Positions 27,915 through 32,348 of a stretch of DNA of 32,348 bases are shown here, in pieces (position 1 is the first letter of the stretch; the number at the start of each line of letters is the position of its first letter). Origin of the DNA: Pseudomonadota bacterium (GTDB lineage Bacteria; Myxococcota_A; UBA796; GCA-2862545); assembly GCA_023954855.1 (NCBI GenBank), contig JAGSGY010000064.1, forward strand, positions 1 to 32,348. The letters run 5' to 3'. The position numbers were made by a program, and so were the translations under genes. The notes beneath the pieces were generated by a model, which made no database searches, was not told where the DNA came from, and saw only the letters and a program-made list of their open reading frames with translations.

Positions 27915-28015
27915 CACACACAATCTGGACGACTGTAAAGAGCTTGCACAGTAAGCCCCGATTCACGCGGACGGCCTGAGCTTTCGCTATTTTGATCTTC
28001 CGCCCCGAGGTCATC

Positions 28016-29065
28016 ATGCGTATCGCCCTTCTTTCGCTTCTCGCTCTCTCTGGACAGGCCCTGGCGAATCCGTCAGCGGGGGCGATTGAGTGGGTCGACT
28101 ACGAAGAGCCGGCGCTCGACGCGATCGACAAGGTGGGCGTCCAGCCGCCGCTGGGCATCGTCAACGGAAGCGTGACCACCGAGTACCCAAATGTGCTCGC
28201 CCTGGTGGTGCTGTTTGGCGGCGGGCAGGGCTCGCAGTTCTGCTCGGCGACGCAGATCTCGGACGACTTTGTGCTGACCGCGGCCCACTGCGCCGAAGCG
28301 GGCGAGAACTACCTCAACCAGGGCGGCACGCTCTACATCGCGCGCACCAACAACGTGTACCAGACCCCGGAAGATGGTTGGTTTCAGGTGCGCGGCGGTG
28401 GTGTGCACATCCACCCCCAGTGGCCCGGCATGAACGCGCAAGAGGTCATCCACGATGTGGCGCTGATGCAGACCTCAACGCCGATCGTCGGAACGGGTGG
28501 GCCGGCGGTGCTCAATGACGAGCCCATCGACAGCACCTGGTTTGGCCGCGAGCTCACCTTCGTCGGCTTCGGCATCACCGACGACGACGCCCAGGACTCG
28601 GGGATCAAGCGGGTCACTTCGATTCCCGTCGGCGAGGTCGAGCCGGGCATCGTCTACAGCTACGACCCGAACACGAACGTCTGCTCGGGTGACTCCGGCG
28701 GTGCAGCCTTCGAGATCACCCCCGACGGCCTCGAGCTCGCCGGTGTGAACAGCTTCGTGTTTCAGCAGGACTGGAATAGCGACCCCTGTGATGGCGGCGC
28801 GAACGGCGCTGCGCGCGTGGACAGCTACCTAGACTGGATCATCGGCATCGAGCCCGACGTGTTGACGGACTGGGCCCCGGACCCTGTCGACACGCCCGAT
28901 CCCAACGACCCCACGACGGGCACCGGTGACGGTCTCACCGAGGCTGACGACGCCGTCACGGGCGTGGGCTGCGGCTGCAGCAGCACCGCTTCCGCGCCTG
29001 CTGGACTCGCCGCCTTGTCCCTGCTCGTGCTTCCTCTTGTGCGTCGCCGCTCCACCTTTTCGTGA
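28016..29065 (+). CDS. Trypsin-like serine protease with MYXO-CTERM-like anchor
   Basis: 349 aa. Signal peptide MRIALLSLLALSGQALA. A peptidase S1 domain starts at GIVNGSVTTEYP (47-58; the usual IVGG is IVNG). The catalytic triad is His91 (LTAAHC), Asp147 (HDVALM) and Ser227 (CSGDSGG). A Pro/Asp/Thr-rich linker (about 286-310) leads to GCGCSS (318-323), a hydrophobic helix (PAGLAALSLLVLPLV) and RRR: a MYXO-CTERM-type sorting tail, cut and lipid-anchored in Myxococcota by a myxosortase. The start ATG at 28016 has GAGG upstream; an in-frame ATG at 27992 would add 8 residues. A secreted or surface protease, perhaps predatory or for nutrient release (inference). Confidence 0.92.
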   Translation: MRIALLSLLALSGQALANPSAGAIEWVDYEEPALDAIDKVGVQPPLGIVNGSVTTEYPNVLALVVLFGGGQGSQFCSATQISDDFVLTAAHCAEAGENYLNQGGTLYIARTNNVYQTPEDGWFQVRGGGVHIHPQWPGMNAQEVIHDVALMQTSTPIVGTGGPAVLNDEPIDSTWFGRELTFVGFGITDDDAQDSGIKRVTSIPVGEVEPGIVYSYDPNTNVCSGDSGGAAFEITPDGLELAGVNSFVFQQDWNSDPCDGGANGAARVDSYLDWIIGIEPDVLTDWAPDPVDTPDPNDPTTGTGDGLTEADDAVTGVGCGCSSTASAPAGLAALSLLVLPLVRRRSTFS

Positions 29066-29112: not shown

Positions 29113-29142
29113 TTGACACGACCACTCGTGCAGTCCTAGGCT
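29113..29142 (+). promoter_or_regulatory. Strong sigma-70-like promoter of MNIO RiPP operon
   Basis: TTGACA (29113-29118), an 18-base spacer, then TAGGCT (29137-29142). The -35 is a perfect consensus match and the -10 matches 4 of 6 positions. The predicted start is near 29149, giving a leader of about 46 bases up to a strong RBS (GAGGAGGA) and the ATG at 29195. Confidence 0.65.
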
Positions 29143-29194
29143 CTGCTGGTTTGGCGCGGGCCGCTAATGGCTGCGCTCCCTCGAGGAGGAATCG

Positions 29195-29581
29195 ATGTCG
29201 AAGAGCCTGCAGTCGCAGCTGGTCGCTACCGCTCTCGCCGGCCTGATGGCTGGCTCCCTGTCCGCTTGTGGCGGAGCCGAGACACCCGAGGCTGCCCCTG
29301 AGGCTCCCGCGGAGCCCGCACACGAAGAGGCCGCACCGGCCGATGCAGAGGCTCCGGCTGCTGCCGAGGCCGCCGCTGAGGGCGAGGCTGCTGCCGAAGG
29401 CGCTGCCGAGGGCGAAGCCGCTCCCGCTGACGCCGTTGAAGGTGAGCAGGGCGAGGCCAAGGCCGCGAACAGCTGCAAGGGCCACAACGAGTGCAAGGGC
29501 AAGGGCGGCTGTGCCGTCGAGGGCCAGAACAGCTGCAAGGGCCAGAACCCGTGCAAGGGCAAGGGCGGCTGCAACATGTAG
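29195..29581 (+). CDS. RiPP precursor lipoprotein with duplicated Cys core (bufferin/HvfA-like)
   Basis: 128 aa. Strong RBS GAGGAGGA. Lipoprotein signal AGSLSAC (Cys25). Residues 26-90 are an Ala/Glu/Pro-rich spacer with AAEGEAAAEGA repeats. The C-terminal core has two 15-residue copies: NSCKGHNECKGKGGC (92-106) and NSCKGQNPCKGKGGC (112-126), joined by AVEGQ and ending NM. The six core Cys are at 94, 100, 106, 114, 120 and 126. Directly downstream lie a DUF692 MNIO enzyme and a DUF2063 partner, the known modification pair for bufferins and HvfA, whose Cys are turned into thiooxazole- or oxazolone/thioamide-type groups that bind metal. Modification and copper binding here are inferred from that context. 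The lipid anchor and long spacer are notable. Confidence 0.85.
   Translation: MSKSLQSQLVATALAGLMAGSLSACGGAETPEAAPEAPAEPAHEEAAPADAEAPAAAEAAAEGEAAAEGAAEGEAAPADAVEGEQGEAKAANSCKGHNECKGKGGCAVEGQNSCKGQNPCKGKGGCNM
29486..29572 (+). repeat. Two-copy repeat of the peptide core
   Basis: Within the precursor gene the DNA for NSCKGxNxCKGKGGC occurs twice. AACAGCTGCAAGGGCCA and GTGCAAGGGCAAGGGCGGCTG are shared by both copies at the DNA level with few differences, indicating recent duplication of the core. Confidence 0.7.
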
Positions 29582-29598
29582 CGCCACAGCGGGGCCTT

Positions 29599-30444
29599 GT
29601 GTCCCGCTTTCGCGTGCCTGACCTCGGTATCGGGGTTGGGTATCGCGTGCCTCACTATCGTGAGGTTGTCGATGAGCAGCCGGCGATGGACTGGTTCGAG
29701 CTGCTCGCCGAGAACTTCATGGTGGAAGGCGGATCTCCGCTTCACTACCTGGACCGGATCGTCGCGGCGTACCCCTGTGTGCTGCATGGGGTCTCGATGT
29801 CGCTGGGCGGCGACGAGAATCCCGAGCACTCCGACCAACTTGAGGCGCTCATCCGCAGGGTGCAGCCGCCGTGGTTCTCGGATCACCTCTGCTTCACGGG
29901 CTCAGCGCACGCCAACGTGCACGACCTGTTGCCGCTGCCGTACACCGATCAAGTCCGCGACCATGTAGTCGAGCGGATCAAGCGTGTGCAGGACCGCTTC
30001 GAGATTCCCTTCGCGGTCGAGAATGTCTCGTCGTACCTGACCTACAAGGACTCGGTCGTCCCCGAGTGGGAGTTCCTTGCCGACGTCGCCGAGCGCGCCG
30101 ACTGCGCGCTGCTACTCGACGTGAACAACATCTTCGTCTCGAGCGTGAACCACGGCTTCGACCCGTACGTCTACCTGGCTGCCGTGCCAGCTGACCGCGT
30201 CGTACAGATTCACCTCGCCGGCCATGAGACCCGACCCGAGGGCTACCGCATCGACACCCACGATCACCCGGTCTGTGAAGAGGTTTGGGAGCTCTACGCA
30301 GCGGCGATTCGCAAGATCGGCAGCGTGTCGACGCTGATCGAGTGGGATGGCCAGATCCCCAGCTTTGCCCGGCTTCAGCAAGAGGCAGACAGTGCTCGAA
30401 GTGTGCGGGATCAGGCGCTGGAGGCCGCTCGTGCTTCCAGCTGA
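29599..30444 (+). CDS. MNIO (DUF692) RiPP maturase, BufB/HvfB/MbnB-like
   Basis: 281 aa from GTG at 29599, 17 bases after the precursor stop. DUF692 proteins are TIM-barrel enzymes with a two- or three-iron centre that oxidise Cys in precursor peptides (MbnB, TglH, ChrH, BufB). Metal-ligand motifs are all present: GIGVGYRVPHY, LAENF (Glu38), LHGVSMSLGG (His63), FSDHLCF (Asp95, His96), VENVSS (Glu141, Asn142), LLDVNNIFVSS (Asp174, Asn176), IHLAGH (His205, His209), DTHDHPV (Asp219, His221, His223) and IEWDGQIP (Glu248, Asp250). Expected substrate: the Cys core of the preceding gene. A cytoplasmic enzyme, so modification should precede export. Its 3' end overlaps the next gene by 14 bases. Confidence 0.95.
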   Translation: MSRFRVPDLGIGVGYRVPHYREVVDEQPAMDWFELLAENFMVEGGSPLHYLDRIVAAYPCVLHGVSMSLGGDENPEHSDQLEALIRRVQPPWFSDHLCFTGSAHANVHDLLPLPYTDQVRDHVVERIKRVQDRFEIPFAVENVSSYLTYKDSVVPEWEFLADVAERADCALLLDVNNIFVSSVNHGFDPYVYLAAVPADRVVQIHLAGHETRPEGYRIDTHDHPVCEEVWELYAAAIRKIGSVSTLIEWDGQIPSFARLQQEADSARSVRDQALEAARASS

Positions 30445-31174
30445 CTGGCGGGCGCGCATGGCCGAGATTGTGCGCGGAGCCGAGGATCCCGACGCGTCCT
30501 GGTTCGCCGGCGGTGTCGTGCTGGGTCCGCTCGACCAGATCGGGGTCTACCGCGACCAGTACCGTCTGCGGCTGGGTGATGCGGTGCGCGACGAACTCCC
30601 GGGCTTCTGCGCCTTGGTCGATGACGCCGAGCGGATCGATGAGCTCGTGTTCGCCTACCTCGCCGCGCATCCGTCGCAGTCGTACACGCTCAATCGCATT
30701 GCCGACGCGTTTCCCGCCTTCCTTGCCACACAGGATGTGCCGCAGGCTTGGCTCGAGATGGTCGCGCTTGACCGGGCGGTGATGGATGGATTCGAGGCTG
30801 CCGAAGGGCACACGATTCGACCCGAGCAGCTCGCGACGACTCCTCGACTTCGGCTGCAGCCCCACGTGCGCCTGCTGCGTCTTCAGCACGATGTGCATCG
30901 CTTTCGCAGCGCCGTCATCTCGGACGAGCCGCTGCCTGAACTCGCAGAGCAGGCGGTCTGCCTGGTCGTGTTTCGCCGCGCGCTGAAGATGCGTCATCTC
31001 GAGGTTCCGCCAAGCTGCCTTGCGGTGCTCGAGGCCATTGGAGAAGGCGCTGCGTTGGGCGATGCCCTGTCGGAGGCAGTCGCGGCGGGTGCGGATCCGA
31101 GCGTGTTGCAGGAACGTCTCGGGGACTGGTTTCGGCTCTTCGCGGAGCGTGATTTGGTGGAAGCTACCCGCTGA
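30431..31174 (+). CDS. DUF2063 partner protein, BufC/HvfC-like
   Basis: 247 aa from GTG at 30431, inside the maturase gene (14-base overlap); an alternative in-frame ATG at 30458 exists. The N-terminal part matches the DUF2063 pattern: ...GPLDQIGVYRDQYRLRLGDAVRDELPGFCALVDD...ELVFAYLAAHPSQSYTLNRIADAFPAFLA (each block shorter than 20 is diagnostic: IGVYRDQYRLRL, YLAAHPSQSYTLN, AFPAFLA). These proteins carry the precursor to the MNIO enzyme or form its complex, as MbnC/TglI-type partners do. The C-terminal half is helical, with EQAVCLVVFRRALKMRHLEVPPSCLAVLEAI, similar to winged-helix ends of HvfC-type proteins. Overlap implies a fixed ratio to the maturase. Confidence 0.9.
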   Translation: MLPADWRARMAEIVRGAEDPDASWFAGGVVLGPLDQIGVYRDQYRLRLGDAVRDELPGFCALVDDAERIDELVFAYLAAHPSQSYTLNRIADAFPAFLATQDVPQAWLEMVALDRAVMDGFEAAEGHTIRPEQLATTPRLRLQPHVRLLRLQHDVHRFRSAVISDEPLPELAEQAVCLVVFRRALKMRHLEVPPSCLAVLEAIGEGAALGDALSEAVAAGADPSVLQERLGDWFRLFAERDLVEATR

Positions 31175-31271: not shown

Positions 31272-32348
31272 ATGCTTCGATTCGACTTCTTCTTGGCGCT
31301 GTTCGCGCTGCTGCTCAGCGCGACCGCGGATGCCAGACCGCGGGACTGCCGGCCGAACACGGACCTTAGCTCCTACATCGACAACGGCACCTACAGCGGC
31401 AATCTCTGCGGCTCTCGCGACCAGACCGCCGGCTCCTGCGGCAGCTCCGGTGAGGAAGAGGGCTTTCTGATCACGGCCCCCTCGGATGGCCAGCTGCGCC
31501 TCACGACCGACGGAAGCACCTTCGACACCATTCTCTACGTGCGCGAAGGCGACTGCGATGGCGTCGAGCTTGGCTGTGACGACGACGGCGGCGCCGGCAG
31601 CCAGAGCACGCTTCTGATCGATGTGACCGCCGGCCAGGTCTACTCGGTCGTCGTCGAGGGGTACGGAAGTGCCTGTGGCGACTTCGATCTGACCATGGAG
31701 ATGATCGACTGCTCCACGCCAGGCAACGACCTGACCTCCTACGTCAACAACGGGGTCTTCTCGGGCAACACCTGTGGCGAAGGGGACGACTCTTCTCCCG
31801 GATGCAGTAGCGGCGGAGAAGAGGTCGCGTACTCCTTCGTGGCCCCGATCGACGGCATTCTCACGGGGCACACCGACGGCAGCGACTTCGACACTGTGAT
31901 GTACCTCCGCGAGGCGACTTGCTCCGGCACTGAGCTCGACTGCGATGACGATGGCGGCAGCACCAGCGGCTCGAGCCGGGTGTCGGCGGCAGTGCGTGCG
32001 GGCGTCGAGTACTGGGTGTTCGTCGAGGGCTACAACAGCGGCTGTGGCGACTTCGACCTCACGCTCGAGATCACCGATGGGTCGTGTGCGCCCACGGACG
32101 TGCGTGCTGAGCTCAGCTGCAGCTCGGACCTGTTTGGTGAGACGACCTCCGGTGGCTCGAACGAGCTTAGCGACTACACCTGTGGCAGCCCGATTGCGCC
32201 GCTCACACAGGGCAACCAAGAGGCGATCTACACCTTCACACCGCAGTCTACGGGCTCTGTGACCTTCCTGCTCGATGGCATGTCGAACGACCAGGATCTC
32301 TACGTGCTCGAGGACGGCTGCTCATCGGCCTACTGCATCGAAGGGGCG
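31272..32348 (+). CDS. Secreted Cys-rich repeat protein (partial, runs off window)
   Basis: 359 codons visible, no stop. Signal peptide MLRFDFFLALFALLLSATADA. At least two beta-sandwich repeats of about 110-120 residues follow, each starting DLSSYIDNGTYSG or DLTSYVNNGVFSG, then a GEE(E/V) motif, DGSTFDTILYVRE or DGSDFDTVMYLRE, GCDDDGG or DCDDDGG, VVEGY or VFVEGY, and SACGDFDLT or SGCGDFDLT. A third, more divergent unit begins near SCAPTDVRAEL. The conserved acidic loop (CDDDGG) may bind calcium. The fold resembles PPC-like domains of myxobacterial exoproteins; no enzyme motif is visible. It starts 97 bases after the DUF2063 gene; a TAGAAT just upstream (31248-31253) may be its -10. The ATG has weak SD support (GAGGG). 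Confidence 0.8.
   Translation, partial: MLRFDFFLALFALLLSATADARPRDCRPNTDLSSYIDNGTYSGNLCGSRDQTAGSCGSSGEEEGFLITAPSDGQLRLTTDGSTFDTILYVREGDCDGVELGCDDDGGAGSQSTLLIDVTAGQVYSVVVEGYGSACGDFDLTMEMIDCSTPGNDLTSYVNNGVFSGNTCGEGDDSSPGCSSGGEEVAYSFVAPIDGILTGHTDGSDFDTVMYLREATCSGTELDCDDDGGSTSGSSRVSAAVRAGVEYWVFVEGYNSGCGDFDLTLEITDGSCAPTDVRAELSCSSDLFGETTSGGSNELSDYTCGSPIAPLTQGNQEAIYTFTPQSTGSVTFLLDGMSNDQDLYVLEDGCSSAYCIEGA

Follow-up and report, generated by a model that had tools for sequence, protein, structure and literature searches.

A bufferin-type operon predicted to make a lipid-tethered copper-buffering peptide, with a signal-peptide motif as its possible recognition leader

Bufferins raise a question that their authors have themselves named: how do the maturation enzymes recognize a precursor that has a signal peptide for a leader, and how does its modification come ahead of export? 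We considered it for three close-packed plus-strand genes (A, B and C) at the end of the window, that is, the whole stretch of 32,348 nucleotides analyzed here, and in a comparison across 55–67 loci that suggests a testable answer. The features of the locus are listed in Table 1. The initial annotation had described a precursor with a lipoprotein signal and six core Cys, a DUF692 enzyme with iron-ligand motifs and an overlapping DUF2063 gene, all of which were confirmed in the sequence. The DUF2063 gene overlaps the BufB gene by 14 nt, and an identical 14-nt overlap was found in the congener L003. A chance ORF was ruled out by conservation in relatives, including the core codons of L003, whose final 36 codons and stop show 3 synonymous and 1 non-synonymous codon differences. 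The upstream neighbor (window positions 27992–29065) is a protease of the trypsin family whose C-terminal tail (GCGC...hydrophobic...RRR) looks like a MYXO-CTERM sorting signal; the downstream neighbor (31272–32348) is a secreted repeat protein with weak PPC and galactose-binding-like domain matches, which runs off the contig. With a protease on one side and a repeat protein on the other, the operon thus consists of ABC alone. Neither a copper gene nor DoxX adjoins it within the window.

Table 1. Features of the locus and the evidence for each (window coordinates).
Feature	Position	Strand	Evidence
Putative promoter TTGACA-N18-TAGGCT	29113..29142	+	Sequence; hexamers, spacing and GTGCAGTCCTA block also in congener L003
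Ribosome-binding site GAGGAGG	29183..29189	+	Sequence; 5 nt ahead of ATG
Bufferin precursor (BufA2-like), 128 aa	29195..29581	+	NF050166 match; homologues in order and other phyla
Signal-peptide h-region motif ALAGLMAG, residues 13-20, proposed enzyme-recognition leader	29231..29254	+	Precursors vs controls; held-out PSSM
Lipobox LSAC, Cys25 predicted lipidated	29258..29269	+	Sequence; Cys retained in most order-level relatives
68-residue Ala/Glu/Pro-rich spacer	29270..29473	+	Sequence; spacers longer in SPII than SPI/Tat precursors
Core, two CKGxNxCKGxGGC units, six Cys	29468..29578	+	Sequence; near-invariant in L003
MNIO (DUF692) bufferin maturase BufB, GTG start	29599..30444	+	NF050167, PF05114, 3BWW, ligand motifs
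DUF2063 partner (BufC/HvfC-like, PME-type 1), GTG start	30431..31174	+	PF09836; AF2 model vs 3DEE, TglI

The promoter is the weakest element of the locus. Both hexamers of the proposed TTGACA-N18-TAGGCT and their spacing are kept in L003, where TTGACAC...GTGCAGTCCTAnGCT is present at equal distance, and the block containing GTGCAGTCCTAnGCT has a single occurrence in the genome. However, TAGGCT matches the −10 consensus at only 3 of 6 positions and the element went unscored in a sigma-70 consensus scan; a strict sigma-70 promoter was therefore rejected. We retain the element as putative solely on its conservation in L003, and the upstream block may comprise a promoter plus a gene-specific operator.

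Gene A encodes a precursor with a brief polar start, a hydrophobic stretch running to LSAC (residues 22–25), a spacer and a tail of 37 residues that contains six Cys. The N-terminal export signal (h-region and lipobox) was called by sequence rule: LSAC, preceded by a hydrophobic stretch, fits the pattern [LVI][ASTVI][GAS]C, with predicted cleavage between LSA and C-GG, and its position is conserved in relatives. The core Cys (residues 94, 100, 106, 114, 120 and 126) fall within two CKGxNxCKGxGGC units, and these six correspond to the 6 or 12 conserved Cys in a CxGxN/CKG context that mark family membership. When the precursor was checked against known bufferin profiles, as had been suggested initially, the one meaningful match was NF050166 Cu_RiPP_BufA2 at 24.9 bits (E = 1.7e-5), under the NCBIfam cut-off of 60 bits, which serves as an annotation threshold and does not define the family biologically. 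Because relatives of like core type with four half-units scored 68.7 bits (L016, 12 Cys, over the cut-off) and 58.9 bits (L012, duplicated core, just under it), the long spacer and the differing C-terminus, rather than membership in another family, probably account for the low score. Two other assignments were ruled out: Buf1, since DUF2282 (PF10048) had no Pfam match in the precursor, and oxazolin/HvfA (Buf_EGKCG), since the precursor has CKG repeats and the MNIO reads IEWDG, in place of EGKCG and Phe.

BufB passed the cut-off of NCBIfam MNIO_BufB (NF050167; 342.8 bits, cut-off 310) and did not reach that of the HvfB model (237.7 bits, cut-off 360); it also scored 338 bits against Pfam PF05114 and matched structure 3BWW (E = 6e-45). 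The candidate iron-ligand/catalytic motifs VLHG, FSDH, VEN, LLDVNN, IHLAG, IDTH and IEWD were invariant or nearly so among 73 aligned MNIOs; for HvfB, three residues of the third iron site (Asn, Asp and His) have been reported as essential (PMC13419390). The residue following the catalytic Asp is Gly in BufB (IEWDG), compared with Phe in the Lys-Cys (EGKCG) enzymes, and varies among the aligned MNIOs (D 26, A 19, G 13, E 11), so that it does not serve as proof of Cys-Lys specificity. At the position described as facing the substrate Lys, BufB has Gly, compared with Asp reported for Cys-Lys enzymes. Besides, the same genome has a second, divergent MNIO-like ORF (L002 / L087:13027-14748, minus strand; contig C9:93489-94220) with 112.8 bits against PF05114 and a best NCBIfam score of 86.6, far under cut-off. 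It sits between ORFs that look hemC-like and hemD-like by eye, without an obvious Cys-rich precursor, and comparable weak second MNIO matches occur in many order-level genomes.

The DUF2063 partner passed the cut-off of Pfam PF09836 (41.9 bits, cut-off 27.2) and fell under that of NCBIfam HvfC. A PDB sequence search with this protein gave no match, though its predicted fold did: the AlphaFold2 model (mean pLDDT 93.2) matched two MNIO partner proteins, NGO1945 (3DEE, E = 7.9e-7) and TglI (8HCI, E = 7.8e-6), and, weakly, the leader-binding protein TbiB1 (E = 0.2). As modeled, BufC consists of a DUF2063 domain and an RRE-like C-terminal half, the PME-type 1 architecture, which accompanies signal-peptide-bearing precursors (PMC12452194).

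Because BufB passed its cut-off, BufA2 was the sole meaningful match of the precursor, and the BufC fold and the gene order agree with them, we consider it likely that the locus is a Buf2-type bufferin operon (bufABC) making a lipid-tethered copper-buffering peptide. Family models, the anatomy of the operon and its relatives support the earlier proposal of a bufferin-like metal-binding RiPP that is anchored by a lipid and has a spacer. For the modification chemistry, order of steps, lipidation, location and copper binding of this peptide we rely on analogy with characterized relatives. By this analogy, the RRE domain of BufC would bind the precursor in the cytoplasm, probably via an A-x-A-G-L motif in the hydrophobic core of the signal, and present the C-terminal core to BufB, which would turn Cys into 5-thiooxazoles, most likely at the four Cys-Lys sites and perhaps at all six Cys. 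The modified precursor would then be exported and diacylated at Cys25, and the cut by signal peptidase II (LspA) would also take off the recognition leader. The product would be an N-terminally lipidated, copper-binding core on a 68-residue disordered tether at the membrane, where it would buffer excess envelope copper. With the same chemistry the peptide might instead buffer another metal (zinc, gold or mercury) or redox/sulfur stress; the window has no copper genes adjacent to the operon, and Buf-MerC fusions and the gig operons, which gold induces, point to metals other than copper (PMC12452194). However, thiooxazole products of bufferin and related enzymes are published as copper-binding, including the characterized peptides of the BufB enzyme clade, and Buf1/Buf2 of Caulobacter counter copper stress, so that we regard a function other than copper buffering as unlikely.

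The view taken in the initial annotation, that all bufferins described so far are soluble and periplasmic, proved wrong. Antoine et al. 2025 (Microb Genom) predicted about 16% of Buf2 bufferins to be lipoproteins, maybe membrane-anchored (PMC12452194), and a November 2025 preprint reported SPII signals in bufferins and oxazolins and demonstrated tri-acylated, MNIO-modified NedA and DybA experimentally (PMC12636315); a claim to the first lipidated bufferin is ruled out by both papers. With Buf2/BufA2 bufferins (Buf_6/12Cys; NF050166; “Cys-Lys” captophorins) the locus shares six Cys (12 in duplicated relatives), CxGxNxCKG units, an exported precursor immediately before the MNIO and DUF2063 genes, and the lipoprotein signal predicted for that fraction of the family. 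It differs from them in core units that end in GGC without the C-terminal GW...EC segment, in the sub-cut-off score and in the 68-residue spacer. The oxazolin NedA (Neisseria dentiae, NedBC), for which lipidation and −4 Da per site were shown (PMC12636315), also combines a lipoprotein signal with an MNIO/DUF2063-modified Cys core, but has EGKCG (Lys-Cys) rather than CKG motifs and a different residue at the MNIO specificity site. Similarly, DybA/chryseobasin-type RiPP lipoproteins are MNIO-modified peptides cut by signal peptidase II, whereas their CPACGMG core, ChrH-type enzyme and macrocycle chemistry are distinct and the cores dissimilar. Buf1 bufferins (DUF2282) have the same enzyme clade, Sec export and copper buffering, but four Cys, a DUF2282 domain and often sigma/anti-sigma and DoxX genes.

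Among 58 genomes drawn from the order, 29 had a BufB enzyme over the cut-off. Most of the fetched order-level BufB loci had a CKG...GGC precursor directly upstream, with a lipobox in the majority of precursors and a core of two or four units in most relatives, which extends lipid-anchored bufferins to a clade where lipid anchoring is the rule. No recognizable precursor was found at L027, L032, L048 and L050, some of them situated at contig edges. It had been allowed at the outset that the MNIO-DUF2063 pair might turn up with another precursor; what we found was that it consistently accompanies the precursor type of the window. The gene order A-B-C was the same across the order and in other phyla, and distant relatives with the same core came from records labeled Acidobacteria, Planctomycetota, Verrucomicrobia and Proteobacteria, where the core stands behind SPI, SPII or Tat-like (RRxF) signals. 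A plasmid search gave one weak match only, in Asticcacaulis. Canonical BufA2 precursors within the phylum read CxGVNxCKG...CxGxNxCKGxGW...EC, and most of them scored over the BufA2 cut-off.

Some relatives showed further variation. The precursors of L034, L041 and L051 have the last GGC unit extended to GGCCT...C and thus eight core Cys instead of six. Another order-level relative (L052:2029-2940, minus strand) has, next to an MNIO gene, a 303-aa lipoprotein-signaled protein in which bufferin-like Cys motifs (CGGTNSCRG and CRGVNGC) occur together with a cytochrome c domain (CDWCH) and a copper-binding motif of the MopE type. At a contig edge, a BufB gene is preceded and overlapped by an ORF (L035:44-280) that has repeated CSAENGC/CSAENSC units and may be a precursor of a different type.

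A maximum-likelihood tree of 67 MNIO rows had a single change of core type (CKGxNxCKGxGGC vs. canonical GW...EC). In contrast, the three-state signal class (SPI, SPII or Tat-like, assigned by sequence rule) needed at least 11 changes on this one tree, several deep branches of which are weakly supported, compared with a mean of 22.5 and a minimum of 16 changes for shuffled labels. This contrast is new, as are the persistence of a signal motif in the precursors and the longer spacers of lipid-anchored members, and the findings on how signals switch and on their shared motif outweigh the locus itself. A single core change against many signal changes argues for repeated gain or loss of lipidation while core and enzyme stayed stable, and suggests that metal buffering can readily switch between a periplasmic and a membrane-tethered form.

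The motif, A-x-[AST]-G-[LIMV] and often then x-[AS]-G, is located in the hydrophobic part of the signal. In hand-trimmed N-termini, from loci nearly all retrieved via enzyme or core rather than signal, its loose form ([AGS]-[AVLMFIG]-[ASTG]-G-[LIMV]) was present in 20 of the 22 order-level precursors with the window's core type, in 15 of the 17 diverse ones and in 8 of 21 canonical BufA2 precursors. Controls from 753 kb of the window's own genome had it in none of the 33 lipoprotein-like N-termini and in 2 of the 39 SPI-like ones (Fisher p about 5e-13, uncorrected for relatedness). A PSSM trained on the diverse set only gave a median of 12.7 bits for the held-out order-level precursors compared with 0.4 bits for 14 control lipoproteins; canonical BufA2 precursors had a median of 6.9 bits. 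Given these counts and scores, and the authors' remark, based on preliminary data, that BufB and BufC recognize a sequence which includes the Buf1 signal peptide (PMC12452194), the simplest reading of the motif would be a recognition leader. A general h-region constraint on short Cys-rich exported peptides, set by Sec or Lol passage and involving no leader, would fit the richness of signal h-regions in Ala, Gly and Leu regardless of the motif, as well as its presence in just a minority of canonical BufA2 precursors; yet its near absence from exported proteins of the same genome and its persistence across SPI, SPII and Tat-like signals speak against such a constraint, which we consider possible but somewhat doubtful. 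We tentatively propose, at just short of even confidence, that the Buf2 signal motif is read by BufBC before export and that RiPP leader and export signal are one; SPI or SPII (Sec/Tat) would then act as leader protease, and the core would be repeatedly re-targeted, either free in the periplasm or tethered.

Lipid anchoring was accompanied by longer spacers. For precursors sharing the core type of the window, the stretch between the mature N-terminus and the first core Cys had a median length of 44 for SPII (n = 24) compared with 16 for SPI/Tat (n = 15; Mann-Whitney p = 6.5e-6), and the window precursor, at 69, had the longest of the set. Phylogenetically independent pairs pointed in the same direction, which was non-significant with too few pairs. 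As to the spacer itself, the Ala/Glu composition noted initially was confirmed (Ala/Glu/Pro-rich), but the length is 68 residues rather than 65. The long spacer may simply be an ordinary disordered linker of outer-membrane lipoproteins, involved in sorting or in reaching beyond peptidoglycan and not metal-specific. In either core type, spacers are longer in SPII members, other lipoproteins such as Pal have disordered N-terminal linkers (PMC12826056), and nothing directly opposes this explanation, which is compatible with a tethered copper buffer and which we judge evenly balanced. The surface exposure that was allowed for initially found no support. With regard to the anchor site, +2 Lys has been linked to the inner membrane and +7 Ala to the extracellular matrix in Myxococcus xanthus lipoproteins (PMC3222651). 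Since the mature start CGGAETP has neither +2 Asp/Lys nor +7 Ala, our default guess is that the outer membrane is likelier than the inner.
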